IMG/VR virus record: IMGVR_UViG_3300027741_000006
Span: 1-45,053 of that record
Source: a virus
Length of the DNA stretch: 45,053 nucleotides
Reading direction: 5' to 3' (one strand)
Each line of letters opens with the position of its first letter. The stretch's first letter is position 1. The notes beneath the pieces are model-generated. The model was given only the letters and a program-made list of their open reading frames with translations, searched no databases and had not been told where the DNA came from. The translations under genes and the position numbers were made by a program. Shown here piece by piece: positions 5,644 through 32,200 of this stretch.

Positions 5644-5991
5644 TTAGTTCTTAGCTAAGTAAGGATCAACAAGATCAACATCAGCATCTAAAGTGCCAGT
5701 AACGTCTTTATCGTTAATCATTCGGTAGTGACCACCATCTTTACCCAAATACAGTAAGCCTGCATATTTAGCAAAGATAACTTTGTCGCCAACCTTACAC
5801 CAAGGTGCAGGTTCATCACCGTAGCATTGGTCGCCCATAGCGATAACAACGCCAGTAGTGTTGCCCATTTGTTCTCGTGCCTCTGAAACTTCAGTTGTAA
5901 GAATGATGCCTCCTTTAGAGACTTTCTTTACTTCTTGAGGTTTGATAAGCACTCGCCAACCTACAGGGTTAATACCGGATTCATTACTCAT
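5644..5991 (-). CDS. GroES-like co-chaperonin
   Basis: This 115-residue protein has the GroES-type beta-barrel order: VGWRVLIKPQE as first strand, a mobile-loop-like KGGIILTTEVSE, then TTGVVIAMGD, VGDKVIFAKYAG and a C-terminal YRMINDKDV. The mobile loop would contact GroEL, and the GGIIL segment fits the GroEL-binding motif. T4 gp31 is the known precedent for a phage co-chaperonin needed to fold capsid protein. The start is placed at 5991 because AAGAGAGAAACAA precedes that ATG; it overlaps the upstream gene's stop by 8 bases. Its place just before scaffold and capsid genes supports a head-folding role. Confidence 0.8.
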   Translation of the reverse strand: MSNESGINPVGWRVLIKPQEVKKVSKGGIILTTEVSEAREQMGNTTGVVIAMGDQCYGDEPAPWCKVGDKVIFAKYAGLLYLGKDGGHYRMINDKDVTGTLDADVDLVDPYLAKN

Positions 5992-6214
5992 TTGTTTCTC
6001 TCTTTTGAATAGGTTCAAACATATCGCCGTATTCTAAATTTAGAATAATAGCAATAGCTCTACACCTGCCTTTAACTTCTAACTCTTCATCATACGCATT
6101 GTTGATGAGTCCTTCTTTCATGGATTCTCTGTCATCACTTAACATCCTAAACAGACGTTTAGTAACTGGGTGAAACTTCCATTCTTCGAAGGTATCGGGG
6201 GTTACTGCTTCCAT
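5984..6214 (-). CDS. Small head-module protein, 76 aa
   Basis: The ATG start at 6214 has AAGGAGAGAGA upstream. This 76-residue charged protein contains KFHPVTKRLFRMLSDDRESM and an alpha-helical middle (YDEELEVKGRCRAIAIIL). It has no recognised domain. It overlaps the co-chaperonin gene by 8 bases and follows the portal gene closely, suggesting translational coupling. Short helical proteins at this position often accompany portal or co-chaperonin genes, but a specific role cannot be given. Confidence 0.65.
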   Translation of the reverse strand: MEAVTPDTFEEWKFHPVTKRLFRMLSDDRESMKEGLINNAYDEELEVKGRCRAIAIILNLEYGDMFEPIQKRETNE

Positions 6215-13135: not shown

Positions 13136-13579
13136 ATGGATACTTTCCATTCGACTTTATATGCAGCAGCTACGGAGGCTTTAGTCTCTGATGCTTCTGC
13201 CACAAGCACTTTTGAAAAGATGATTCAGGTTGCGTACACACACAGCACTGAAGAAACCTTTGCAAAAGACATCAAAGCAACTGAAAAACTCATTAAAAAA
13301 GAGTTTGAAGTAGGCTCTATGCCTGGCCCTTGGCGTTCTGCTAAGTCGGTCATTCAAAGTGCTATGAAACTCGGTATCGGCTTAGTTGACGATAACGGTG
13401 GTTACTGTGGCAAAACCTATCTCCAAAATAAAATTAAGGAGATGAAAACTGGAGTTAAAGAACCTATGACCAACGAAGAATATTCTAATAAGATTATTAA
13501 GATGTTGATGAATCCACCAGATGAGCTTGATTCAGCTTTGATCTTTAAAACAGTTAAAGATTTTGTTATTGGTAACTGA
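13136..13579 (+). CDS. Unknown 147-aa protein coupled to CobT/CobS-like genes
   Basis: The start follows ACTGGAGTTAAAA. The protein is helical and Lys/Glu-rich (KDIKATEKLIKKEFEVG) and has a central GPWRSAKSVIQSAMKLG segment and later NKIKEMK. I do not recognise a family. Its stop lies 2 bases before the CobT-like ATG, so the two are translationally coupled and probably act together. It may be a substrate, adaptor or partner of the ATPase/VWA pair, or merely share regulation. Confidence 0.75.
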   Translation: MDTFHSTLYAAATEALVSDASATSTFEKMIQVAYTHSTEETFAKDIKATEKLIKKEFEVGSMPGPWRSAKSVIQSAMKLGIGLVDDNGGYCGKTYLQNKIKEMKTGVKEPMTNEEYSNKIIKMLMNPPDELDSALIFKTVKDFVIGN

Positions 13580-13581
13580 AG

Positions 13582-15375
13582 ATGCTGACTAAAGGCATTG
13601 AAGTTCAAAAATACGTTAGAGCTAGTGCTGGCAGAGTTGGCATCTCTATCGTGTTTGAAGATACTAACCAACCTAGGCATGATGGTAAAACTATCTATTT
13701 GCCTAGGATTACGGTAGATACTACTGACGCTCAATTACAAGAGTTTATGGCATCTGTTGACCACGAGGTTGCACATGATCGCTTTAGCTCTTTTGAAGTC
13801 ATTAAAGAAAAGAAACCTGATCCCCAAGGTTTGCTAATGTTTGTTTGGAACTTCTTAGAAGATTCCAGAATTAACATGATTGAATCTTTGGAGTATCAAG
13901 GTTTTAGAGAAAACTGGGATGAAACTAGTTCTTTGATTGTTGACAGAATCCTCTTTCGATTTAAAAAAGAATCTAGTTTTACCAAAAAGTTAGCTGCTGC
14001 TCTTATCTGTTGGGATGGAGTTATGTCTGGTGCTAGTTTTCCTAAACTAGAGCTAGTTACAAGCAAATACACTCCTGATAAAAAGATAACTGATGTTCTT
14101 AATAACTTCTCTGATCGTCTTGTACATACTCATACGATACTGGATAAACGATTAGGCACAGAAGCTACTCACAATTTAGCAGTTGACATTCTCAACAAAC
14201 TAGAAAAGGAATGCGAAGAAGAAATTAAAAAGCACAAAGAAGCAGAAGCTTCTAAACCTAAAGACGGTAAAAGCGAAGGCAAGGCTGCTAAAGATGAATC
14301 TGGCGATAGCAAAGAGTCTTCTAAAGAAGAAACTGAAGCTACCAAAAAAGATAGTGAAGAATACAAAATCATCACTATTAAGTTAACTGAAGAAGAGCTT
14401 CGCTCTATGTCTGTTACGTTGCCTGACGAAGGTTCTCGTATGGGCAAAACTGGAGTTAACTTAGAGCCAGTAGAGTACGACCGTGATAGTTGGGATTTAA
14501 CTGATTACGATAAGTTTATTGTAATTAATTACCCAAAAAGAACTGGTGAAGACCAATATTTTAGAGAAAACAGTGATAGCCGAGAGTTTTTGTCTGAATA
14601 CGCAGACCACGTTGAAAACAAACTTGTATCTCAAGAAAACTTTGCTCAACAAATCCGCAAATTGATTCAGATCAGAGCTAAAGTGCAGCGTCAATACGGA
14701 GTAAAGAAAGGTAAATTAGACCAATCTAGGTTGTCTCGTATTTGCTTTAATGCTCCAGGTTTCAATGAACGTGTTTTTAAGAACAAAATTGAAAACAAAG
14801 TTTTAGATGCTGCCATTACTGTGTTGGTTGACATGTCTGGTTCTATGGGAGGAATGAAAGCGTTTCACGCTCTTGCTTCTACCTTGTTAGTCAATGAAGT
14901 TTGCTCTACTCTAAACATTCCAGTTGAGATTGTGGGGTTTAGCGATGGATATGACTACAGAACTGAAGTTCAACCACTAATGTTTGTTTACAAAGGTTTT
15001 TCTGATCTAAAAGTCAGCTCAGACCAACTAAAACAATCATTTTCTTGTAGCAGCAGCTTTATGCACGGCAATCCTGACGGTGAAAACATTCTTTGGGCGC
15101 ATGATCGTTTGATTAAACGCAAAGAGAAAAAGAAACTGTTGATTGTGATGTCTGATGGTAGCCCTGCTGCAACTAAACCTTCTTATGGACTCAGTACTTT
15201 CACTGAAAAAGTAATCAAAGAAGTAGAAGCTACAAAGTTTGTTGACATTTATGGCCTAGGTTTATGTAGTAATGCAGTTTCTCATTACTACAAAAATTAC
15301 AGCATTGTCTACAAACCTGAAGAAATCCCAAGCAAATTGTTAGAACTCATAGAAAGGAAGATTATCAATGTCTAA
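13582..15375 (+). CDS. CobT-like protein: metallopeptidase-like domain plus VWA domain
   Basis: This 597-residue protein has a zincin-like HEVAH motif at residues 61-65 and a second FLEDSRIN block at 91-98, typical of the peptidase-like part of VWA proteins. A Lys/Glu/Ser-rich linker (about residues 205-270) follows. The C-terminal VWA domain has the metal-binding DMSGSMG motif (D417, S419, S421) and a later MSDGSP. Cobaltochelatase CobT shares the acidic linker and VWA layout. VWA proteins normally partner a MoxR-type AAA+ ATPase, encoded here immediately downstream with 8 bases of overlap. Other vitamin B12 genes are absent, so a role in protein remodelling is at least as likely as cobalt insertion. 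Confidence 0.8.
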   Translation: MLTKGIEVQKYVRASAGRVGISIVFEDTNQPRHDGKTIYLPRITVDTTDAQLQEFMASVDHEVAHDRFSSFEVIKEKKPDPQGLLMFVWNFLEDSRINMIESLEYQGFRENWDETSSLIVDRILFRFKKESSFTKKLAAALICWDGVMSGASFPKLELVTSKYTPDKKITDVLNNFSDRLVHTHTILDKRLGTEATHNLAVDILNKLEKECEEEIKKHKEAEASKPKDGKSEGKAAKDESGDSKESSKEETEATKKDSEEYKIITIKLTEEELRSMSVTLPDEGSRMGKTGVNLEPVEYDRDSWDLTDYDKFIVINYPKRTGEDQYFRENSDSREFLSEYADHVENKLVSQENFAQQIRKLIQIRAKVQRQYGVKKGKLDQSRLSRICFNAPGFNERVFKNKIENKVLDAAITVLVDMSGSMGGMKAFHALASTLLVNEVCSTLNIPVEIVGFSDGYDYRTEVQPLMFVYKGFSDLKVSSDQLKQSFSCSSSFMHGNPDGENILWAHDRLIKRKEKKKLLIVMSDGSPAATKPSYGLSTFTEKVIKEVEATKFVDIYGLGLCSNAVSHYYKNYSIVYKPEEIPSKLLELIERKIINV

Positions 15376-16489
15376 AGACAAAGTAGAAGACCTTGTTAAA
15401 AAAGCACTTAAGGAGGCTATGGATAAACGTAAACTTGAACCCACAGTTGTCGTTACTGAGCATGACGATGGTCTTACTGAAGAACTTGAACGCTACAAAG
15501 ATGATTTGAAATCAGTTGAAATGAGCAAACCAACTTTAAAAGACAACCAACGTAGGCTTTCAGATGTAATTCCAGATTTGGTAATGACATTAGACGAAGA
15601 CTTTCCTGTAACTGTGTTTAACAAACATGATTGGGATGAACGCATAGTTTCGTTTATTCCAGAAATCAACAAGTCTTATGTCATTGACAAAGAATTGGCT
15701 AGCAACATTTTGATGGCTTGGGAACTCAACGAGAAAGTGCTTTGTTATGGCCCTACTGGAGCTGGTAAATCTAGTCTTGTTGAGCAGCTTTGCGCTCGCA
15801 CTAATCGTCCTTTTGTGCGTGTCAATTGCACTGGTGATATGGACTCATCCATGATTTTTGGTCAATTGACAGCTAAAGATGGTTCAACAATCTGGGTTGA
15901 TGGTGCTGTAACAGAAGCAGTCAAGTATGGTGCTGTGTTTGCATGGGATGAGTGGGATGTAACTCCACCAGAGATTTCTATGGGCCTACAATGGCTCTTA
16001 GAGGACGATGGCAAGCTTTTCTTAAAAGAAATGCCCGGTAGTACCAAAGACAAGCAAATCACCCCTCACGAGCATTTTAGGATTGTTGCTATTGGTAACA
16101 CTCAAGGCCAAGGTGATGACACAGGTGCTCATGCAGGCACAAACGTTCAGAACTCAGCTACATTAGATCGCTTTGGAACTGCGGTGTACGTTGACTATCT
16201 GCATCCTTCTGTAGAAGAAAAGATGTTGGTAAACAAATGGCCTGACACAATCACAGGTAAATCAGCTAAAGAGCTAGTCAAACTAGCCAATTTGATTCGA
16301 CAAGGCTACAAAGCAAGTCAATTCAACTTGACTGTATCTCCAAGAGCTTTGTTCAGTATTTGCAGAAAAGTATCTGCTGGTTGTACACTGAAGAAAGCGT
16401 TTACGCTTGTGTACCTCAATAAACTTAACGACACACAACGTAAAGTTGCTGACGAACTCTTTACAAAAGTGTACGGCAGCTCACACTAA
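15368..16489 (+). CDS. CobS/MoxR-like AAA+ ATPase
   Basis: This 373-residue ATPase has Walker A GPTGAGKSS (residues 128-136), Walker B VFAWDEWD (190-197), a sensor-1 asparagine in AIGNTQ (N244) and LDRF (266-269) with a likely arginine finger. It matches the CobS branch of MoxR ATPases, which work with VWA partners such as CobT to drive metal insertion or complex remodelling. The gene overlaps the CobT-like gene by 8 bases and ends in a terminator (16503-16542), so the three-gene block 13136-16489 looks like a functional unit. CobS-like genes are known in other phages; their role there is not settled. Confidence 0.88.
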   Translation: MSKDKVEDLVKKALKEAMDKRKLEPTVVVTEHDDGLTEELERYKDDLKSVEMSKPTLKDNQRRLSDVIPDLVMTLDEDFPVTVFNKHDWDERIVSFIPEINKSYVIDKELASNILMAWELNEKVLCYGPTGAGKSSLVEQLCARTNRPFVRVNCTGDMDSSMIFGQLTAKDGSTIWVDGAVTEAVKYGAVFAWDEWDVTPPEISMGLQWLLEDDGKLFLKEMPGSTKDKQITPHEHFRIVAIGNTQGQGDDTGAHAGTNVQNSATLDRFGTAVYVDYLHPSVEEKMLVNKWPDTITGKSAKELVKLANLIRQGYKASQFNLTVSPRALFSICRKVSAGCTLKKAFTLVYLNKLNDTQRKVADELFTKVYGSSH

Positions 16490-16502: not shown

Positions 16503-16542
16503 ATAGCCTTCCTTAACAGGAGGGCTATTTACTTTGCGTTTT
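16503..16542 (+). terminator. Rho-independent terminator after the CobS-like gene
   Basis: A 10-bp stem with one G-T wobble, ATAGCCTTCC (16503-16512) with GGAGGGCTAT (16519-16528) and a six-base loop, is followed by a T-rich run ending TTTT near 16542. It lies 13 bases after the stop of the ATPase gene and before the primase gene. Confidence 0.72.
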
Positions 16543-16552
16543 GAGAAACAAA

Positions 16553-17350
16553 ATGATAGATAGAAAACTAATCCTTGCAAATGCTCCTAGTAACAATGGT
16601 GAGCAAATACACATTAACCACATTGGCTGCGAAGCAGGTGAAGACAAGAAGCGCAGGCTGTACATCAAACGCACAGAACGTGGGTTAGTTGCGTATTGCC
16701 ATCATTGCAACGAGTCTGGTTCTGCTAAAGATGATGGCAACAGACTAAGCACTTGGATGCAAAAGAAAGATGCTACTGTCTCCAAGGTGACAGCTAAACC
16801 AATCATTGCTGCACTTACACCTCACGGCAAGATGTGGCTGCACAGCAACCTTTGCACAAGTTCTGACGATTGTTTTAACGGCGTAGCAGGTGAAGGCATG
16901 AAGGTTGCTCTTACACTATACAGCCCTGAGAAAGAAGCTATTGGTTGGCAGATAAGAAACCTTGATCCAAAAGCAACGCCCAAATACACAACGTACTACC
17001 ACAGCAGCGCCACTAGAGGCGATGCAAGCTGGTTTCACAAAGACAGCAAAACGCTAGTAATAACTGAAGACTACCTAAGTGCCTACAGGGTGCATAGAGA
17101 CACAGGACTCAGTGCAGTAGCGTTACTAAGAACAACAATGTCAGATAAGACATTGATGCAAGTGTATGACCTTGAGTTTAAGGACATATTTATTTGGCTT
17201 GATCCTGATGAAGCAGGAATTAAAGGAACAACAGCAGTAAACAAAAAACTAACACATTTCTTACCAAGAGAAACCAACATAATATTGTTTGGTATCGACA
17301 AAGAACCAAAAGAATGTGATCCAGCAGGCTTGTGTCACATACTTTTATAA
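16553..17350 (+). CDS. DNA primase (TOPRIM)
   Basis: This 265-residue protein makes RNA primers for the replication fork. The N-terminal part has a CHHC pair (about residues 49-52) and one earlier cysteine, so its zinc ribbon looks reduced compared with T7 gp4. The C-terminal TOPRIM fold has the catalytic glutamate in LVITEDYLS and the acidic motif LDPDEAG. The ATG at 16553 was chosen; a TTG at 16541 would add four residues. In T7, primase and helicase are fused in one protein; here the helicase is a separate gene starting 9 bases later. Confidence 0.85.
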   Translation: MIDRKLILANAPSNNGEQIHINHIGCEAGEDKKRRLYIKRTERGLVAYCHHCNESGSAKDDGNRLSTWMQKKDATVSKVTAKPIIAALTPHGKMWLHSNLCTSSDDCFNGVAGEGMKVALTLYSPEKEAIGWQIRNLDPKATPKYTTYYHSSATRGDASWFHKDSKTLVITEDYLSAYRVHRDTGLSAVALLRTTMSDKTLMQVYDLEFKDIFIWLDPDEAGIKGTTAVNKKLTHFLPRETNIILFGIDKEPKECDPAGLCHILL

Positions 17351-17359
17351 AGGAAACAG

Positions 17360-18625
17360 ATGGACTATGACGTTCTCTACCTTTGCAGTCAAAGCAAAGA
17401 GAACTTAGCAAAATACAGGCGGTACATCAAACCGCATGTAGTAGCCAAAGAAACAAACATTATCCTTGACGGGATGGATAAATACTACAAGACATTCCCT
17501 GGAGTCTCTGACTTTGTATGGGATTCTTTTTCTGCATTTCTTATTGCAGATCAAAGCAAACGATTGACTGACGATGCTATTGTTAAGCTTCGCATGACGC
17601 TTACTAAAGCAAAGACGTTTGTTCCACACCATGCTCACGAGGAAGTGGTCAAGACTCTTATTGAGTTGGACTATCTAGCTAAGATCATGGAAGAGTGTGA
17701 GAAAGTCAAAGAAGGTGAAAGTGACTTAGAGCACGTACACATTCTGGCTACCAACGCATTGAAAGATGTGGAGCGTTACATTGAAAAAGATGAACTATTT
17801 GTTAGTGCAGATTTATCTGCTATTGCAGATCGGATTAGCGGCAGTGGTTATGAGTGGCGTCTTGATGTGCTTAATCGTAGTCTTGGCCCTCTACGTATCG
17901 GTAACTTTGTTATTGTGGCTGCAAGAGTTGAGGTTGGCAAAACAACCTTCCTAGCAAGTGAGGTTAGTTACCTTGCACAACAGTTGCCTAAAGATCGTCC
18001 TGTTGTATGGGTTAACAACGAAGAAGAATCTTCTGTTGTGTTCTTTCGTATTGTTCAAGCAGCTCTTGGTCAAGAATCTAAAGTTCTTATTGCAGACTCA
18101 AAAGCAGCTATGACAAACTACGCAACTTTGATGGGTGGCAACAAAGACAAGATACGTGTTACTAAGGACATGAACAACGTTCGTGACTTAGAAACATTGT
18201 TTAGGGAAGTTAACCCCGGACTAATTGTGTTTGACCAGCTTGACAAAGTAGATGGCTTTAACAAAGGAGATGAACGTGAAGACATCAAACTTGGAAAAAT
18301 CTACAAATGGGCAAGGGAGCTTGCTCGCACTTATGGGCCTGTCATTGCAGCTTCTCAGCTCAGTGCTTCGGTTGTCGATCTTAAAGACCCTCCGTTTATC
18401 GGCATGGATGCTCTCCGTGGAAGTAAGACGGACAAACCGGGTGAAGCGGATGTGGTACTCACAATTGGAAAATATAAGGAGCCTAAATCACCAGAAGAAG
18501 AAATGATACGAACCATCAATGTTCCTAAGAACAAGCTCCCAGGTGGAGGAGCAAAACAAATGGAATCAGAACGTCACGGACAATTTCTTGTGACTATTGA
18601 TCCAATCAGAGCACGGTACGAATAA
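17360..18625 (+). CDS. Replicative DNA helicase (DnaB-like)
   Basis: This 421-residue protein has a RecA-type ATPase domain in its second half. The Walker A is AARVEVGKTTF (G193, K194, T195), close to the AARPSMGKT form of DnaB. The Walker B is GLIVFDQLDKV. Then come VIAASQLS (the H3-like segment with Gln), a GMDALRGS motif and LTIGKYKEP. The N-terminal 150 residues are divergent and helical. It would unwind DNA ahead of the phage polymerase. The ATG at 17360 follows AAAGGAAACAG. It is placed between primase and polymerase genes. Confidence 0.88.
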   Translation: MDYDVLYLCSQSKENLAKYRRYIKPHVVAKETNIILDGMDKYYKTFPGVSDFVWDSFSAFLIADQSKRLTDDAIVKLRMTLTKAKTFVPHHAHEEVVKTLIELDYLAKIMEECEKVKEGESDLEHVHILATNALKDVERYIEKDELFVSADLSAIADRISGSGYEWRLDVLNRSLGPLRIGNFVIVAARVEVGKTTFLASEVSYLAQQLPKDRPVVWVNNEEESSVVFFRIVQAALGQESKVLIADSKAAMTNYATLMGGNKDKIRVTKDMNNVRDLETLFREVNPGLIVFDQLDKVDGFNKGDEREDIKLGKIYKWARELARTYGPVIAASQLSASVVDLKDPPFIGMDALRGSKTDKPGEADVVLTIGKYKEPKSPEEEMIRTINVPKNKLPGGGAKQMESERHGQFLVTIDPIRARYE

Positions 18626-18646
18626 TTGAAAGGAGTATGGAAAACC

Positions 18647-20578
18647 ATGACCATACCAGCATTCGTGGCTATTGACGTTGAGACTACTCTCAATGGCAAT
18701 GAAAATGTAGGACTAGCCCATCCTATGCACCCAGACAACAAAGTTGTTGCATTTGGTCTTTGTGGAACAAAGCCTGTTGCAACATATGATGATAGTGAGT
18801 TTGAGTTTTACATAAGAACAATGCCCAAAGGCGTTGTGTATTGTGGACACAACTTAGCTTTTGATCTGATGTATCTGTACAAGACTTCATCAGGTCTTAA
18901 AAGAATGTTGCAAAACTCTAAGATTTGGGACACTCAGTTAGCTGAGTACATTCTCAGTGCTCAACAAACTAAATGGTCTAGCCTTGACGAGTTGTCTATT
19001 AAGTATGGATTGCCTGTCAAAGACGATACCATTAAGAAATACTTTCAAGCAGGCATGGGTTCAGACAAGATTCCTAAAGAAGAGCTGATCCCATACTTAA
19101 AACAAGACGTAGAAAACACAGTAGCCATAGCTAAAGCACAATACGAACAAGCAGTCAAAGAAGGTCAACTGACTTTGATGCTAACCCAAATGGAAGCTTT
19201 ACACGCAACAGCAGAAATGCAATTCAATGGTTTGCACATTGATACAGCTAAGCTGGATGCGTATACAGTTGAAGTTGTTAACAGCTACGTTGATGTCAAA
19301 CTTGATCTTGAAGCATTAGCTGAAGGATTAGTCGAAGACATTAACAGCCCTAAACAGTGGAGCCAACTATTCTTTGGTGGCAAAAAGAAAGTCAAAATCA
19401 AAGAAGAAGTTGGTGTTTACAAAAACGGCAACACTAAGTTTAAGTTGGTTGAAAAGACAATCACTCTTAAACCTTTTGTTGTGTACACACCAGACCCAGA
19501 CAAGGTGTCTAAAAAGACTGGTCAGATTTCTGTAGATGACTCAGTATTAAGCGACATGCTCAAGCATACGTTTAATCCACGAGCTATCTCAATCATCAAT
19601 CAGCTACTGAAATACAGAGAATTGTCTAAACAGCTTTCAACGTATGTTCAAGGTCTTAGCAAAAACATCATTGGTGAATACATTCATGGCAAATTGAATC
19701 ACACAGCAACTGTTACAGGTCGTTTGTCTTCAACTAACCCTAACTTGCAAAACATCAGCAACAATCCTATTAAACAAATCTTTAATTCTAGGTTTAAAAA
19801 TGGTTGGATTGTTGAGGTTGATTTTAATCAGCTAGAAGTTGTTGCTTTGGCACACGTTACTAGAGACATTCAGCTTATCAAAGACATCTCAGGTGGAGCA
19901 GACATTCACTCAGAGTTGTACAGAGATATGTTTGGTAGGTATCCTAGCAAAGAAGAACGTAAGCCATTCAAAGCTAGAACGTTTCAATTGATCTACGGTG
20001 CAGGTGCTAAAGCTATTAGCAAACAAGCTGGTTGCAGCTTAGACGAAGCTAAGAAATTTGTTGATGTGTTCTACGGTCGTTACAAATCAGTAGCTGTTTG
20101 GCACAAAGAGTTTGCATCTAAAGCAGAGATTGAGTCTACTTACGGTTTTGATGAAGAAGGCTTTCGTGAGAAAACCAAAACCTTTATTTATCGTGCAGAG
20201 ACTGGCAGGAAATTTGCTTTCAAAGAATATCACAGTGAGAGCGAATGGTCGCCTAGAACTTACAACTTCAGTCCAACTGAGTTGAAGAACTACCCTGTGC
20301 AAGGTTTAGCTACTGGTGACATTGTTCCAATGATGTTGGGCGTTATCTTCAGAGAGCTAAAGGGCAGAGATGATGTGAAAATGGTTAACACTATTCACGA
20401 CTCTCTAATGTTTGACGTTGAACAAGAATCACTAGGTGACTTTATAGAAGGGATTACAGCAATACTGAAAAACACACACAAGTATTTTGAAGATACATTT
20501 AACACGCCATTGGCCCTCAAGCTCAATGCAGGGGCATCAATAGGTACAAATTGGTTTGAGATGAAAGAATTGACATGA
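18647..20578 (+). CDS. DNA polymerase, family A, with 3'-5' exonuclease
   Basis: This 643-residue replicative polymerase has exonuclease motifs AIDVETT (Exo I), GHNLAFDLMYL (Exo II) and YLKQDVENT (Exo III). Polymerase motif A is VDFNQLEVVALAH, motif B is FKARTFQLIYGAGA, and motif C is TIHDSLM. In motif B the residue matching E. coli Phe762 is Phe (F446 here). In motif A the usual ELR Arg is Val. The ATG at 18647 lies 11 bases after GGAG; an upstream TTG (18626) is less likely. It is the core of a T7-like replisome with the adjacent helicase, primase and probable SSB. Confidence 0.93.
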   Translation: MTIPAFVAIDVETTLNGNENVGLAHPMHPDNKVVAFGLCGTKPVATYDDSEFEFYIRTMPKGVVYCGHNLAFDLMYLYKTSSGLKRMLQNSKIWDTQLAEYILSAQQTKWSSLDELSIKYGLPVKDDTIKKYFQAGMGSDKIPKEELIPYLKQDVENTVAIAKAQYEQAVKEGQLTLMLTQMEALHATAEMQFNGLHIDTAKLDAYTVEVVNSYVDVKLDLEALAEGLVEDINSPKQWSQLFFGGKKKVKIKEEVGVYKNGNTKFKLVEKTITLKPFVVYTPDPDKVSKKTGQISVDDSVLSDMLKHTFNPRAISIINQLLKYRELSKQLSTYVQGLSKNIIGEYIHGKLNHTATVTGRLSSTNPNLQNISNNPIKQIFNSRFKNGWIVEVDFNQLEVVALAHVTRDIQLIKDISGGADIHSELYRDMFGRYPSKEERKPFKARTFQLIYGAGAKAISKQAGCSLDEAKKFVDVFYGRYKSVAVWHKEFASKAEIESTYGFDEEGFREKTKTFIYRAETGRKFAFKEYHSESEWSPRTYNFSPTELKNYPVQGLATGDIVPMMLGVIFRELKGRDDVKMVNTIHDSLMFDVEQESLGDFIEGITAILKNTHKYFEDTFNTPLALKLNAGASIGTNWFEMKELT

Positions 20579-23930: not shown

Positions 23931-24217
23931 AAAGAAGCAGACACCAATTGATTCGTGATTTGTTATTAGATTCAGAAGATGGTTTAACTATTAAACAATT
24001 GGTAGAAGCACTTGCAGACAACGATAACCCCAAGTCTATACAAAAGACTGTTAAGAATATTTATGGGGTGTACATTGATCGTTGGGCAGTGCCTAAACGT
24101 GGACAATACGCAGCAGTGTATATGTGCATAGATGTTCCTAGTAACGCACCACATCCAACAGAACGATACTTACCACAAACAACGTGGCAACCAACAACAA
24201 CCAAAGGAATTCAATGA
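23927..24217 (+). CDS. Winged-helix-like protein, 96 aa
   Basis: The first 70 residues look like a winged helix-turn-helix: RHQLIRDLLLDSEDGLTIKQLVEAL, then KSIQKTVKNIYGVYIDRW, then a wing with RGQYAAVYMCI. This suggests DNA binding and possibly control of early or late genes. A proline-rich tail follows. The start overlaps the previous stop (ATGA). No cognate operator is proven; the sites at 10661-10676 or 11097-11134 are candidates only. Confidence 0.62.
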   Translation: MKRSRHQLIRDLLLDSEDGLTIKQLVEALADNDNPKSIQKTVKNIYGVYIDRWAVPKRGQYAAVYMCIDVPSNAPHPTERYLPQTTWQPTTTKGIQ

Positions 24218-24516
24218 GCTATGCAATGGTAGAACTAGACATCATACGTTGGGCTGAAGCACGTAAGATTATCCCCAACAGTACACCAGCAACTCAATTA
24301 CTCAAAGCAATGAGTGAAATTGGTGAGTTAGCAGACGCAACTATCAAACAAGACAAACTTGGCATTGTTGATGGAGTAGGTGATGTTATGGTATGTCTTG
24401 TTAGCTATTGTGCTCTTCAAGATATTGATCTTGTAAGCTGCATGAAAGCAGCCTACCAAGAAATTAAAGATCGCAAAGGAACTTTGTTACCTAACGGGGT
24501 GTTTGTAAAGAAGTAA
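24214..24516 (+). CDS. MazG-like nucleotide pyrophosphohydrolase
   Basis: This 100-residue protein shows the all-alpha NTP pyrophosphatase signature: SEIGELADA (ExxE) and, after about 16 residues, DGVGDVMV (second metal site). MazG-type enzymes hydrolyse NTPs or alarmones to monophosphate and pyrophosphate, and phage copies are thought to adjust nucleotide pools or host stress signals. The ATG at 24214 follows AAAGGAATTCA. It is shorter than a full MazG and matches the small MazG-like single-domain type. Confidence 0.78.
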   Translation: MSYAMVELDIIRWAEARKIIPNSTPATQLLKAMSEIGELADATIKQDKLGIVDGVGDVMVCLVSYCALQDIDLVSCMKAAYQEIKDRKGTLLPNGVFVKK

Positions 24517-24586: not shown

Positions 24587-24799
24587 ATGTACAAACTTGA
24601 AATTGAATTGGGTTGGTTGGGTGACGGCAAATTGACTATTGAAACTTCTGACTTTGACATTGTTGAAGTTATCAAAGAATTTGTTGAATTTCAAGAAGCC
24701 GAAGGCTGGATTGGCGCATGGGAAGGCGTTGCCTTTGAAGACTTGGAAGAGTCTGAAGAAGACGAAGCTGAAGAGGAAGAAGAAGCAGAGGCTGCTTAA
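24587..24799 (+). CDS. Acidic C-tail protein, 70 aa, last gene of the early arm
   Basis: The ATG at 24587 follows TTGGAGCAATT. It begins MYKLEIELGWLGDGKL and has a compact beta-alpha start, then a long Glu/Asp tail (roughly 20 of the last 24 residues are acidic or alanine). Its stop shares the sequence TTAA with the stop of the convergent phosphoesterase gene. Acidic tails can mimic DNA and bind host proteins; no target is visible. Confidence 0.65.
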   Translation: MYKLEIELGWLGDGKLTIETSDFDIVEVIKEFVEFQEAEGWIGAWEGVAFEDLEESEEDEAEEEEEAEAA

Positions 24800-25764
24800 T
24801 CGACTACTTTAATCACACGGCCTCGAAACTCTATGGAATCGGGGCTGTGTGTTGTCACCAGTTCAGGCAATAACAATTTGCCATTTACAAATGTTAATAC
24901 AGCAAACCCGCTGCGCCAGTTTAATGGGCCTTGCTCAGTGTAATCTTCAAATTGGGGGCCGTAAGGCTCTGCCAATGTTCCCGTATCAATCCCGTACCGT
25001 ACACCGTTATAGTCGCTAAACGGAGTAACTTTGAGGCTATGCAAATGGCCTGTAATGATGTTTTTGCCCGACCAGATGGCGTTGTTATGAGTGGCATGGA
25101 TACCACCTTTAAAACGATGTTTAACAATTGTTCCTTCATTGATCCACACTGACCAGCAAGGCTCCCAATCTGGGAAGTGGTCTTTGAGAGTGAAGCCCTT
25201 GACATGCTCATACTGTGGAGCATTTGCAGCAAGAAATGTTTCAAACCGTGCATCATGGTTGCCCAAAGGCCACATCAGTTTGACATTATGCCTAGCTTTT
25301 TTAGCAGTCTCTTCAATCTCCCCCATGCAAATAGTACAAGCTTTAAGCTCCTCCATAACTGAAGGAGATTTAGCCCAACCAATGCGAGGATGTCTGCTGA
25401 TCGCAGATCCATCAAAAATATCTCCGTTTGCAATAACCGCATTAGGTTTAAGTTCTTTAATAGCCCACAACAAACCTTTGAATGCAGTAGAGTAAATTCC
25501 CGGCCAAAAGTGGGCGTCACTAAACACAATCACTGTGCCATTTAGGATGCCAAGGTTCTTTTGCTGCGGGTGAACGTGTGCTATTTGAAGATGCTTATAT
25601 TGCTCTTTATCTTGCGGAGCTTTAATAGCAATCTTTAATTTTTGTTCAATCTTTCTACGCCGCCTGTTAAGACCGGATTCGCTTACGCCCAATACTTTAC
25701 TGGCCTCTCGGATTGAGGAGCTGTTTTCAATTGCGCTGATAACCTGTTGATCGGTATTGCCCAT
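24796..25764 (-). CDS. HTH-metallophosphoesterase fusion
   Basis: This 322-residue protein joins an N-terminal HTH (REASKVLGVSESGLNRRRRKI, residues 19-39) to a calcineurin-like phosphoesterase. All the metal motifs are present: FSDAHFW (D83, H85), NGDIFDG (D115, D118), GNHDARF (168-174), a GIHATHN block (H223, H226) and GHLH (239-242). The family cleaves phosphodiesters in nucleic acids or small molecules. The HTH suggests sequence-directed DNA targeting. The ATG at 25764 follows AAGGAAG. It is the last gene of the late arm, after the lysis cassette. Confidence 0.85.
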   Translation of the reverse strand: MGNTDQQVISAIENSSSIREASKVLGVSESGLNRRRRKIEQKLKIAIKAPQDKEQYKHLQIAHVHPQQKNLGILNGTVIVFSDAHFWPGIYSTAFKGLLWAIKELKPNAVIANGDIFDGSAISRHPRIGWAKSPSVMEELKACTICMGEIEETAKKARHNVKLMWPLGNHDARFETFLAANAPQYEHVKGFTLKDHFPDWEPCWSVWINEGTIVKHRFKGGIHATHNNAIWSGKNIITGHLHSLKVTPFSDYNGVRYGIDTGTLAEPYGPQFEDYTEQGPLNWRSGFAVLTFVNGKLLLPELVTTHSPDSIEFRGRVIKVVD

Positions 25765-25812
25765 TACAACTTCCTTCGCCAATAGAGCGTGACATGATTG
25801 AGTATGGTCGAA

Positions 25813-27938: not shown

Positions 27939-29270
27939 TTAACAATACTTAACGTCTTTGCAATAGCCGTTCTTCTTAAGATTAGGCAACATACTTTCTA
28001 ACTTTTTACCAATGTCATCTCGAATCATTGGAGAGTTAATCATGCACACTTTCTTTTTGAAAGTACCGTAGCAGGCTTCACGAGCATCTTCTACAGTCTT
28101 GCCAACACCAGAGACAGTTAACACATAGCTGCCACAAGTAACCAAAGAAGGCTCAGTGTTCTTACCGTCTTTACCAGGAGCGTAACCCATCTTTACTTCA
28201 GACAAATGAATGTTCTTAGTAGCATCTTCCATAGTCAAGTCAAAGATAGGATACCCTGTGTTTTCTTTCTTTTTAACGTTGCTATATGGATAATCAGGTT
28301 GAGACACAACAATGCCGCAGGCAATGTCTTCGCGTACTTTCAATGTGTCTTTACCGTTGATTGAATCAAGCATCCATTGAACAGGATCACCAAGATGCAG
28401 AGCTTGTTGAATCTGAAACAAAGGCCAACCAGGACGAGTAGTAAACTCTAAAGGCCAAGGCATACCCTTGTCATCAATGATGCAGTTGACATCAATGTAG
28501 CCTGTGTAACCAATGCCATGCAAGAAATCTTCAAGAGGTTTAAGAACTTTGTCAGCTAACAAACTCTTTTGTGTGTAACGCAGAATAGTGCCTTGCTCAC
28601 CAGTAGCAGGGCCATAGTCCCCAGACATTAACTTTTTAAATTCCCAGTTCTCAAGGAAGTGTTTGGAGAATCCACCAAGACCAAACCAACCACCAACAGC
28701 CATCTCAGAACCTTCGTGGAACTCTTGCAGAACAAACTCACCATCATAGGCGTTGCTTTTCTTCCACTTGTTTAGCATGAACACCATGTCACGCCAGTCT
28801 TTAGAGCAGTAACTTAAAGCTTTGTCACCATCACCAACAGGTTTAGACACATAGCGTTTGTTCTTGTTAGTAAGCACAAGAGCAATAGCATCATCGTACT
28901 TCTTAAACTTTTGCATAGGAATAGTTGGGATACCAGCACGTTCAAACATAGCAGAACCATACTCACGATCTTGTTCCCAACGAGCACCCTCTACGTTACA
29001 CCCATAGATAGGATAACCTTTAAGACGGTACTTTTCTATTTGTTTAATGTAACGGCTGTTATCAGTAACAAAGATAAGGTCAGCCCAATCCATGCTGCTT
29101 TCCCAATCAACAACCTTTTTAAAACAATCCATGCCATCGCCGTTTTCACAGCGAGTGCCATCAAAGTTGTTACGCATATACACACGGACAGCATGACCGT
29201 GGTTAGCAGACTTAATAGCCAAGTCCAATGCAAACCCACAGTCAAACTGGTCGATGATTAAGAGGTTCAT
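27939..29270 (-). CDS. PurD-like ATP-grasp ligase in the virion operon
   Basis: This 443-residue protein follows the PurD (GAR synthetase) plan. It has an N-terminal Rossmann-like start (MNLLIIDQFDCGFALD), an ATP-grasp core (RYVSKPVGDGDKALSY, FVLQEFHEGSEMAVGG) and the metal-binding WPLEFTTRPGWP. A PurD-type C-domain follows (SYVLTVSGVGKTVEDAREACY, MIRDDIGKKL). The PurD phosphate-binding GNGGREHA motif is not visible, so its substrate may differ. ATP-grasp enzymes join an acyl group to an amine or thiol. The ATG at 29270 overlaps the giant protein's stop (ATGA). No other purine genes are present. Confidence 0.78.
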   Translation of the reverse strand: MNLLIIDQFDCGFALDLAIKSANHGHAVRVYMRNNFDGTRCENGDGMDCFKKVVDWESSMDWADLIFVTDNSRYIKQIEKYRLKGYPIYGCNVEGARWEQDREYGSAMFERAGIPTIPMQKFKKYDDAIALVLTNKNKRYVSKPVGDGDKALSYCSKDWRDMVFMLNKWKKSNAYDGEFVLQEFHEGSEMAVGGWFGLGGFSKHFLENWEFKKLMSGDYGPATGEQGTILRYTQKSLLADKVLKPLEDFLHGIGYTGYIDVNCIIDDKGMPWPLEFTTRPGWPLFQIQQALHLGDPVQWMLDSINGKDTLKVREDIACGIVVSQPDYPYSNVKKKENTGYPIFDLTMEDATKNIHLSEVKMGYAPGKDGKNTEPSLVTCGSYVLTVSGVGKTVEDAREACYGTFKKKVCMINSPMIRDDIGKKLESMLPNLKKNGYCKDVKYC

Positions 29271-32200
29271 TTTTCCCAACCTTTTTCTTTAGCTTTTATG
29301 TGGTAGTCTTTAGCAGCTTTTTTGAGAAGTTTTTCTCGTTCAGCTCTAGCAGCTTTCTTTTGTTCAGGAGTAGAACCGTAAATAGGAAAGCCCATAGTAC
29401 CTAAAATAGCACGTTTAGCACCTTCTCCGGGAGGAGCATCTCTACTAGCAGCTACTTGAAATGGAACAACTGTACCTGCAACAGCTTTGAGTCTACCAGT
29501 AGCACTAGGATCAACCAACTTTTGTGCTTGTGGAGATGCGTACTCAGTACCCGCAACACCAATGATAAGAGCTTTAGGAATAAAACCAAGCTTATTAGCA
29601 AACGTTTTATCAGCATCCATAATCCAGTGGTACGGTTCCATAGCGTGTTTCATAGCTTGCATAGACGTACCATCAGGCCATTCAATGCGAGTTGGGTCTT
29701 TGTTTTCCCAGATAGGACGAGAAGCAGTCATTAAGTTAATGGCGTTTAACAAAGTGAAGTAAGTCAGAGCAGTTTTAAACTGATACATCCTAGCGTAATC
29801 AGATTTAGTTGCAGGACTTGCCATACCTTTAACACCAGCAGCTACATCTAAACTTTTAGGGATAGCAGCAGTAAACGCACGTAAAGTTGAAAGTGTCCAA
29901 TCAGGAGCAAACAAAGCTACTTGCAAACCTCTGCGACCAGCAGGACTATAAGCAGCCATAGCAATACGTTTAGCAAATTCATTCTGTGTTTGTGTAGCAG
30001 CATCAAACCAATTTAAACCACCAAAGCTGTCGTTAACAAACTTAGAAATTTCTTTACGACTAGTGGCTTCGTCAAATGGTTTTCCTTCTTTAGCAGCAGT
30101 CATACGTGCTTTATCTAAGTACGCATCAGCAACCATAATCTTGCCACCAGTATGCAAGAAATTCCAAGTGTAGTTGTCAAACAAACCCAGTGTGTATTTC
30201 TCAACAGTAGACATTGCTGATTCAAGTACACGAGTTTTAGGGCCGTACTTACCAATCATAGAGTCAGCAAACTTACCTGTAGCAGACAAAATACCAGCAG
30301 ACACATCTTCAGGCATTTCTAATTGAAGACCACCTTCTTTAATCCACATATCTACGTTGTCACCAACACCACCATTTTTAAATTGCTCAACAGCTTTAGA
30401 GATAGCAGACAGTTGCAAGTCTTTGCCAGTAGTAGCTTTGATACCTTTTTCAATAAGAGGCAACACAATAGCTTCTTTGATAGGAGTCCACAAAGGAATC
30501 TGCGAACTAGACAACACTTCCATCAAAGACTTGGCGTGAAAGAACGAACCAATAACGTTGATACGTTTAGTCAGTTGAGAGATAGCACCAAATGCTTTCA
30601 TCAAGTCACCCGGGCCAGCATCAAAGACAAACTTTAAAGCAGGCATCATGTCTGGGTGAACAGCGTAGCCAGCAAACTGGGGGCTATCCATCATCTCCCA
30701 ACCGTAAGGCATAGGGTTGTCTTTGTTGACTTCTTTAATAAGAGTTTCACCAGCTACGTTACGAACTTGCTTAAGGTTATCCACAAGTTTTTTGTTCTCA
30801 ATAGCCTTCTCCATTGATGTTGCATATTCTTTGTAGATTTCTGCAATGTCTTTGGTCTTGATTTTAAGACGGAAGTCAGACTTACCAGCAGCGGCAATGC
30901 GGCTATTGGCTTCGTTAATAAACCACTCTAGGTCTGCAAAGGTTTTGAACTTACGTTCTTTACCAAATTTAGATTCGGTAGTCATCCCACGCATAGCAGG
31001 ATCACGAGGAGCTGTTCCTAGTAACGTTTGAATAAACTCTTCACGAGCACCCTTGGGAGCACCAGCCCAATCAAGAATGTGGGTTACGTAGTCTTCAAGC
31101 AAGCCCTTAACAACGCCTGCCTTAACAGCACGATCACCAATGTCTTTAGCAAGAGCTTCGTATCTCTTAGCAACAACAACTTCATGTGGGCTAAGACCCG
31201 ACAGATCACCACTGTCAATGGCAACAGCAATAGCTTCTCTACGAGCAGCATTAGGCACTGCTTCCATCATCTTATCCATTGTGTTGTGGATAATCCGATC
31301 ATTAGCAAGCTTGTTCTTAATGTTTGTACCAACAAACTTTTCTGTCTCTTTGACAGGTTCTAACCAAGTTTGTTTGTACTCTTGGTAGCCCTCATAAAAC
31401 TTAACAGCGTCAGTCTCTCCGTACTTCTCATAGATGTCCGTAGCAATCTCTTTGAACTCTGCTTCGTCTTTAACATCACGAGGATCAGTTTTAGTTTTGT
31501 CAACAGGTAGCTCATCTGGTGAGCCTGCTGTCTTAGAAGGCGTGCTAGTAAGTACAAGATCAGGACGAGGAGTAAAATCTTTAGAGCGTTTAACCATAGA
31601 GATACCTTGGTCAAACACTTCGTCAAGAGCAGTACGAGCACCTTCAGGAATACCAAGTCCTTTACGAACAGTCTCCTTAAAAGCAGCCCACATGTTATTA
31701 GCAACACCTTTAGGTTGTTGACCAACCTCAATGCTACTTAACAGTTTTTGAAACTCTTTGTTGGTAAATGCTTCTGAAGCAAACTCATGTACGTCTTCAA
31801 AGCCGTAATACTCAACACCTGTCTTTGGATCAATTTCTTTGCCATGAGTAGCTTTGTACTTGTCAAACAACTCCTGCATCTTGATAGCAGCAGTGCTACC
31901 TTTTTCTTCTAGCAGTCGTTGAGTACCAGCGTGCAAAGCTTCATGTAGGAACGTTTGCACATTCCCATCTTTGCCCATCTCTATAAGGTGTTCATCTCCA
32001 CCTGTGTACACACCAAGAGCATCTTGTTTTTTAACACCAGCTTTGTCTACGTACTTAATAAAGTCTTTGGAGAAACCTAACCGAGCACTACGAATAAAGC
32101 TAGACTCATTGAGAGCCTTAACTAAGATACGTTGACCATAAGTCCCCATGCCTTTGGTTTCAAGAATGCGATCAAATGCTTCGCCAACATTCTTGACTCC

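Follow-up and report, generated by a model that had tools for sequence, protein, structure and literature searches.

A CobT-like protein with a zincin signature and a MoxR-type ATPase form a phage gene block that probably serves remodelling rather than cobalt insertion

The IMG/VR virus record studied here, a single linear sequence of 45,053 bases that was analysed whole and is called the window below, carries three adjoining genes that probably specify a phage remodelling machine of the MoxR-type AAA+/VWA kind. The machine would have a zincin-like N-terminal domain, act at the replication or host-takeover stage and not insert cobalt. The first gene (13136..13579, + strand) encodes a clade-specific protein of 147 residues, predicted to be all-helical; the second (13582..15375, +) a CobT-like protein of 597 residues; and the third (15368..16489, +) a CobS-like, MoxR-type AAA+ ATPase of 373 residues. 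The three open reading frames are intact and abut as described in a first-pass annotation of the sequence, with a gap of 2 bases before the CobT-like gene and an overlap of 8 bases between the CobT-like and CobS-like genes. The main proposal of that annotation, a MoxR-VWA pair that remodels a target instead of inserting cobalt, is strengthened by equivalog tests, trees, motifs and gene linkage. The novelty of the idea is smaller than that annotation assumed: hundreds of phages are known to have CobST pairs, and a pair made up of a MoxR and a metallopeptidase-vWA protein is already described in jumbo phages (PMC7824862).

In the mechanism that we favour, the CobS-like protein would form an AAA+ ring on which the CobT-like protein docks, holding its target via the metal site of the C-terminal VWA domain. 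ATP hydrolysis would then pull on or reshape the target complex. The zincin-like N-terminal domain may also cut the target or the 147-residue protein, and the latter might be a clade-specific adaptor, regulator or substrate.

The ATPase matches AAA_5 in Pfam and phrog_249 in PHROG. Its Walker A (GPTGAGKS, residues 128-135; 15749..15772, +), Walker B (VFAWDE, residues 190-195; 15935..15952, +), sensor 1 asparagine (N244) and arginine-finger candidate (R268, in DRF; N244 to R268 at 16097..16171, +), all noted as intact in the first pass, align with those of true CobS, as does the sensor 2 arginine (R326, in SPR). These motifs and an adjacent VWA gene with a MIDAS are those of a MoxR-type AAA+ protein with a VWA partner. 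The closest solved sequences are midasin and CobS, and 618 phage records match the protein. The AAA_5 proteins labelled 'porphyrin biosynthesis' in Listeria phages are distant, and the protein encoded after them is a different one; they were set aside and used as an outgroup only. Genes for sigma-70-type factors lie directly 3' of CobS in RHEph10 (L120:8184-8819) and in an Acinetobacter phage-like plasmid (L119:7230-7895), which may point to a connection with RNA polymerase.

As for the CobT-like protein, it comprises an N-terminal zincin-like domain in the PF06213 region, an acidic linker (residues ~224-306) and a C-terminal VWA domain. The latter matches CobT_C (PF11775) with 89.6 bits for a cut-off of 21, and the N-terminal part matches the CobT N-domain (PF06213) marginally, with 26.2 bits for a cut-off of 26.1. 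Its PHROG matches are phrog_1576 and phrog_17276, and the closest solved sequence is cobaltochelatase CobT. The VWA metal site announced in the first pass is present as the MIDAS motif DMSGS (residues 417-421; 14830..14844, +). In a fold search with the AlphaFold model (mean pLDDT 73.5), the matches listed cover the VWA part only; the best is NorD in NorQD complexes (Z 17.9, rmsd 3.7, 234 aligned residues), followed by the MIDAS domain of Rea1/MDN1 (Z 15-16). Since both belong to AAA+ remodellers, they count for the remodelling function.

Zincins require an HExxH on one helix and a glutamate on a later helix, and the N-terminal domain has both elements. The HEVAH motif (residues 61-65; 13762..13776, +), also reported in the first pass, ends a predicted helix spanning residues 49-68, and E93, the candidate third zinc ligand, lies in a helix at 84-104. 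Only 0.6% of shuffled copies of the protein have an HExxH within their first 150 residues. The motif is found in all 77 unique relatives of the clade, and both HEVAH and the N90-x-x-E93-D94-x-R96 helix, together with E101 (N90 to E101 at 13849..13884, +), are invariant in the clade alignment (A2, 53-74% identity); a loss of HEVAH or MIDAS residues, raised earlier as a possible weakness, was thus not observed in the clade. No Pfam peptidase model matches the protein, and a zincin fold for the domain rests on the motif and the predicted secondary structure. We infer that this domain is zincin-like, its HExxH...E signature being intact, and has putative protease activity.

The combination of HExxH and NxxED is also found in the majority of unrelated phage CobT-like proteins, among them those of the Salmonella phage-plasmid SSU5, the Rhizobium phage RHEph10, the Roseobacter phage CRP-810, T5S1, the Ochrobactrum phage OC and cyanophage Syn33, where the protein is called a 'peptidase'. 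The CobT N-domain model recognises the N-terminal domains of SSU5, CRP-810, T5S1 and RHEph10, so that they constitute one domain family; our data suggest that the labels 'CobT' and 'peptidase' designate two ends of one protein. HExxH is lost in nickie, the Acinetobacter phage-like plasmid and a Stenotrophomonas phage, and AMS5 is devoid of the whole domain, indicating that proteolysis would be dispensable in some lineages. The CobT of Vibrio phage ICP2 (L107:7137-8879) keeps a HECYH, and its glutamate helix reads NMVVDHNIE, such that a catalytic ligand may be altered. Cellular CobTs retain the glutamate helix and the MIDAS and have DSMAL (Rhizobium), DAFAL (Cereibacter) or DAAAL (Pandoraea) at the HExxH site. 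In the CobT tree they branch among viral proteins that bear HExxH, and the motif requires a minimum of three changes. In a tree that has only four cellular pairs and several long branches, the simplest reading would be an ancestral HExxH that disappeared in the lineage of the chelatase; our data thus suggest a possible origin of chelatase CobT from an ancestor resembling a peptidase. It is tempting to go further and to see the block as a replication-stage, ATP-powered metalloprotease, with the CobT-like protein as an active zincin, the VWA domain for target recognition, the 147-residue protein as a dedicated adaptor or substrate and chelatase CobT derived by loss of HExxH. This fuller proposal is conceivable, if somewhat unlikely.

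The 147-residue protein has 34 invariant columns in an alignment of 43 sequences, and its AlphaFold model consists of seven helices (pLDDT 88.6). Searches against Pfam, PHROG, NCBIfam and PDB sequences yielded chance-level matches only. In the fold search with the model, the lowest E value was 6.6 and the top match by Z (5.2) was a designed helical protein, so none is convincing; the guess of a winged helix was dropped. Using HMMER and hhalign, we found no homologue beside CobT/CobS in ICP2, SSU5, nickie, RHEph10, T5S1, CRP-810, Syn33 or the Stenotrophomonas phage, nor was there one among named phages; the protein is known only from this virus group.

Among viral contigs, close CobT-like genes fall into 68 distinct clusters, 54 of which have enough upstream sequence. 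In 54 of 54 distinct contigs the gene for the 147-residue protein lies immediately upstream of the CobT-like gene, at a distance of -11 to +14 bases; all three-gene loci come from one virus group, and their shared synteny is inherited, not independent. The tie between this gene and the pair, which the first-pass annotation had proposed to look for, is thus obligate in this group. Conversely, the CobT-like gene comes next after all 179 copies that have downstream sequence (loci counted, some contigs more than once), and among related viral contigs the gene was never found without that neighbour. The arrangement holds even where the 147-residue proteins are 42-48% identical. We therefore regard the helical protein as a putative clade-specific partner or substrate of the pair. 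It might instead be a mere syntenic neighbour, next to a CobT-like protein whose zincin signature is structural only, metal-stabilised and non-catalytic. The absence of HExxH from several phage relatives and from cellular CobT and the provenance of every locus from one virus group speak for that explanation, which we find doubtful given the invariance of HExxH and NxxED and the persistence of the neighbour at the identities reported above.

The remodelling machine that we propose would operate early. The CobS-like gene is followed by a primase gene in all 63 loci with enough sequence, and primase, helicase and PolA genes all come after it in the same order in 42 of 42. In the window, these replication genes (16541..20578, +) encode, according to family matches, a Toprim primase (16541-17350, +), a DnaB-type helicase (17360-18625, +) and the family-A DNA polymerase PolA (18626-20578, +). 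A replication gene is also present within the fetched flank of the pair in ICP2, SSU5, nickie, RHEph10, the Stenotrophomonas phage, the AMS5 plasmid, T5S1, Syn33 and OC; CRP-810 is the exception, with none seen within its fetched flank. The fixed position of the three genes on the replication arm, before those of the primase, helicase and polymerase, makes replication or host takeover the most likely stage for the machine to act. At the end of this arm are a MazG-like gene (24184-24516, +) and a calcineurin-type phosphoesterase gene (24796-25782, -).

Phage early regions mix replication genes with takeover genes. A role restricted to counter-defence or host takeover, in which RNA polymerase, the nucleoid, defence proteins or another host complex would be taken apart or cut by the machine, would agree with the location of the block on the early arm, with the sigma-factor genes that adjoin CobS in RHEph10 and the Acinetobacter element and with the limitation of the helical partner to this virus group. 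Nevertheless, counter-defence genes are usually patchy in distribution, whereas the block is obligate in all 54 members with enough sequence and strictly placed before the primase gene, which makes such a role unlikely.

Phage proteases often mature virions, which is a point in favour of a function in the making of the particle. A virion assembly chaperone or maturation protease has been put forward for the jumbo-phage MoxR-vWA pair, which has a metallopeptidase domain at an N-terminus and the same domain plan as the block, and in connection with ATV tail growth (PMC7824862). For the block described here we judge it improbable, because the identified structural genes of the window (capsid, portal, terminase, connector and tail) are all on the - strand and the block belongs to the divergent, + strand replication arm; its neighbours are replication genes in other phages too.

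According to their terminases, the nearest relatives of the virus are the uncultured phage ct2os315 and the Alcaligenes phage QDWS535. Neither has an annotated CobST pair or figures among the listed CobT matches. An 'antirestriction protein' of ct2os315 (L122:15863-16711) is encoded roughly at the position of the three-gene block of the window. A gene for a GroES-like Cpn10 (5644-6018, -) adjoins the portal gene in the window, an arrangement common to ct2os315 and QDWS535. In addition, the window has a gene with weak ATP-grasp/GARS similarity, just under the Pfam cut-offs (27939-29279, -), located 3' of a gene for a 1469-residue protein, and QDWS535 carries an ATP-grasp/amidoligase cluster.

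True chelatase subunits are defined by the NCBIfam equivalog models TIGR01651 for CobT (cut-off 759 bits) and TIGR01650 for CobS (cut-off 559 bits). The CobT-like protein scores 93 bits while the Rhizobium CobT control reaches 1111, and the CobS-like protein scores 124 bits compared with 652 for Rhizobium CobS. Cellular CobST proteins form one clade in each tree, with support of 100/99 for CobS and 100/100 for CobT, the nearest rows being CRP-810 and T5S1. The clade of the window stands apart from it (99/96 for CobS; 99/97, together with ICP2, for CobT), and ICP2 is its nearest named branch in both trees. Genes are ordered T-S in the window, ICP2 and SSU5, and S-T in CRP-810, T5S1 and cellular pairs. 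A scan of 84,980 cellular genomes found no relative of the CobT-like protein. The comparison with CobT models and the clustering, both suggested in the first pass, thus agree that the pair is not a cobaltochelatase. Its statement that there are no other cobalamin genes also holds for the other open reading frames of the window that were scanned; CobN was not found in these 45,053 bases, in a record that may be a fragment. CobN (PF02514) is absent from nine of the 14 control genomes, E. coli included, and phages recorded from E. coli, K-12 among them, encode related CobT and CobS. Among the control genomes, Caulobacter vibrioides has a CobT (PF06213) and no CobN, and hence an orphan cellular CobT. 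On the Pandoraea plasmid pPO70-1 (L116:2456-5900), cobS and cobT follow the urease gene ureG rather than cobalamin genes, and a metal-centre role is possible for this cellular pair.

The published proposal that CobST of viral origin commandeers the CobN of the host to raise B12 output, for instance for a class II ribonucleotide reductase (PMC8651126, in which the cyanophage 'peptidase' annotation is called mistaken), finds support in the homology of the pair to CobT_C and CobS and in the CobN that the host may have, but is improbable here, as both proteins are far under the equivalog cut-offs, the window search found neither CobN nor another cobalamin gene, related pairs are found in E. coli phages though the E. 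coli control has no CobN, and chelation leaves the HExxH and the 147-residue partner of the clade unexplained.

Phage cobS and cobT are widely counted as vitamin-B12 auxiliary metabolic genes. The zincin signature, which has no counterpart in chelatase CobT, and the presence of CobST in phages of hosts devoid of CobN argue that this annotation is in large part mistaken, and a specific alternative, a remodeller or protease of the AAA+ kind that acts early in infection, becomes testable. Whether cyanophage cobS shares the function of the host gene in B12 synthesis has been described as unknown (PMC9983427). The name Cobavirus refers to a B12-dependent ribonucleotide reductase (PMC6775973) and was rejected as a link to cobS/T.

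Among known systems, the aerobic cobaltochelatase CobS/CobT (TIGR01650/TIGR01651; PDB 9uka and related entries) shares with the block an AAA+/VWA pair, homology along CobS and both domains of CobT (PF06213 and PF11775), with the MIDAS retained. In contrast, HExxH is found in the block and not in the chelatase, the block has no CobN and an extra gene for the 147-residue protein, and its gene order is T-S instead of S-T. The phage 'CobST' pairs of Vibrio phage ICP2, SSU5 phage-plasmids, cyanomyoviruses (cobS and 'peptidase') and haloviruses similarly have adjacent AAA+ and VWA genes, often near replication genes, but they are ~25-37% identical to the block over part of each protein, have no homologue of the 147-residue protein and are variable in HExxH. 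The MoxR and vWA proteins of group 2.2 jumbo phages, the latter fused at its N-terminus to a metallopeptidase (Iyer et al. 2021, PMC7824862), have, as described, the same domain plan and differ in that virion assembly is proposed for them. Finally, the MIDAS remodellers NorQ/NorD and Rea1/midasin, which combine a MoxR-type or dynein-like AAA+ protein with a VWA domain, provide the best VWA fold matches, but with 12-18% sequence identity, other N-terminal domains and cellular targets.
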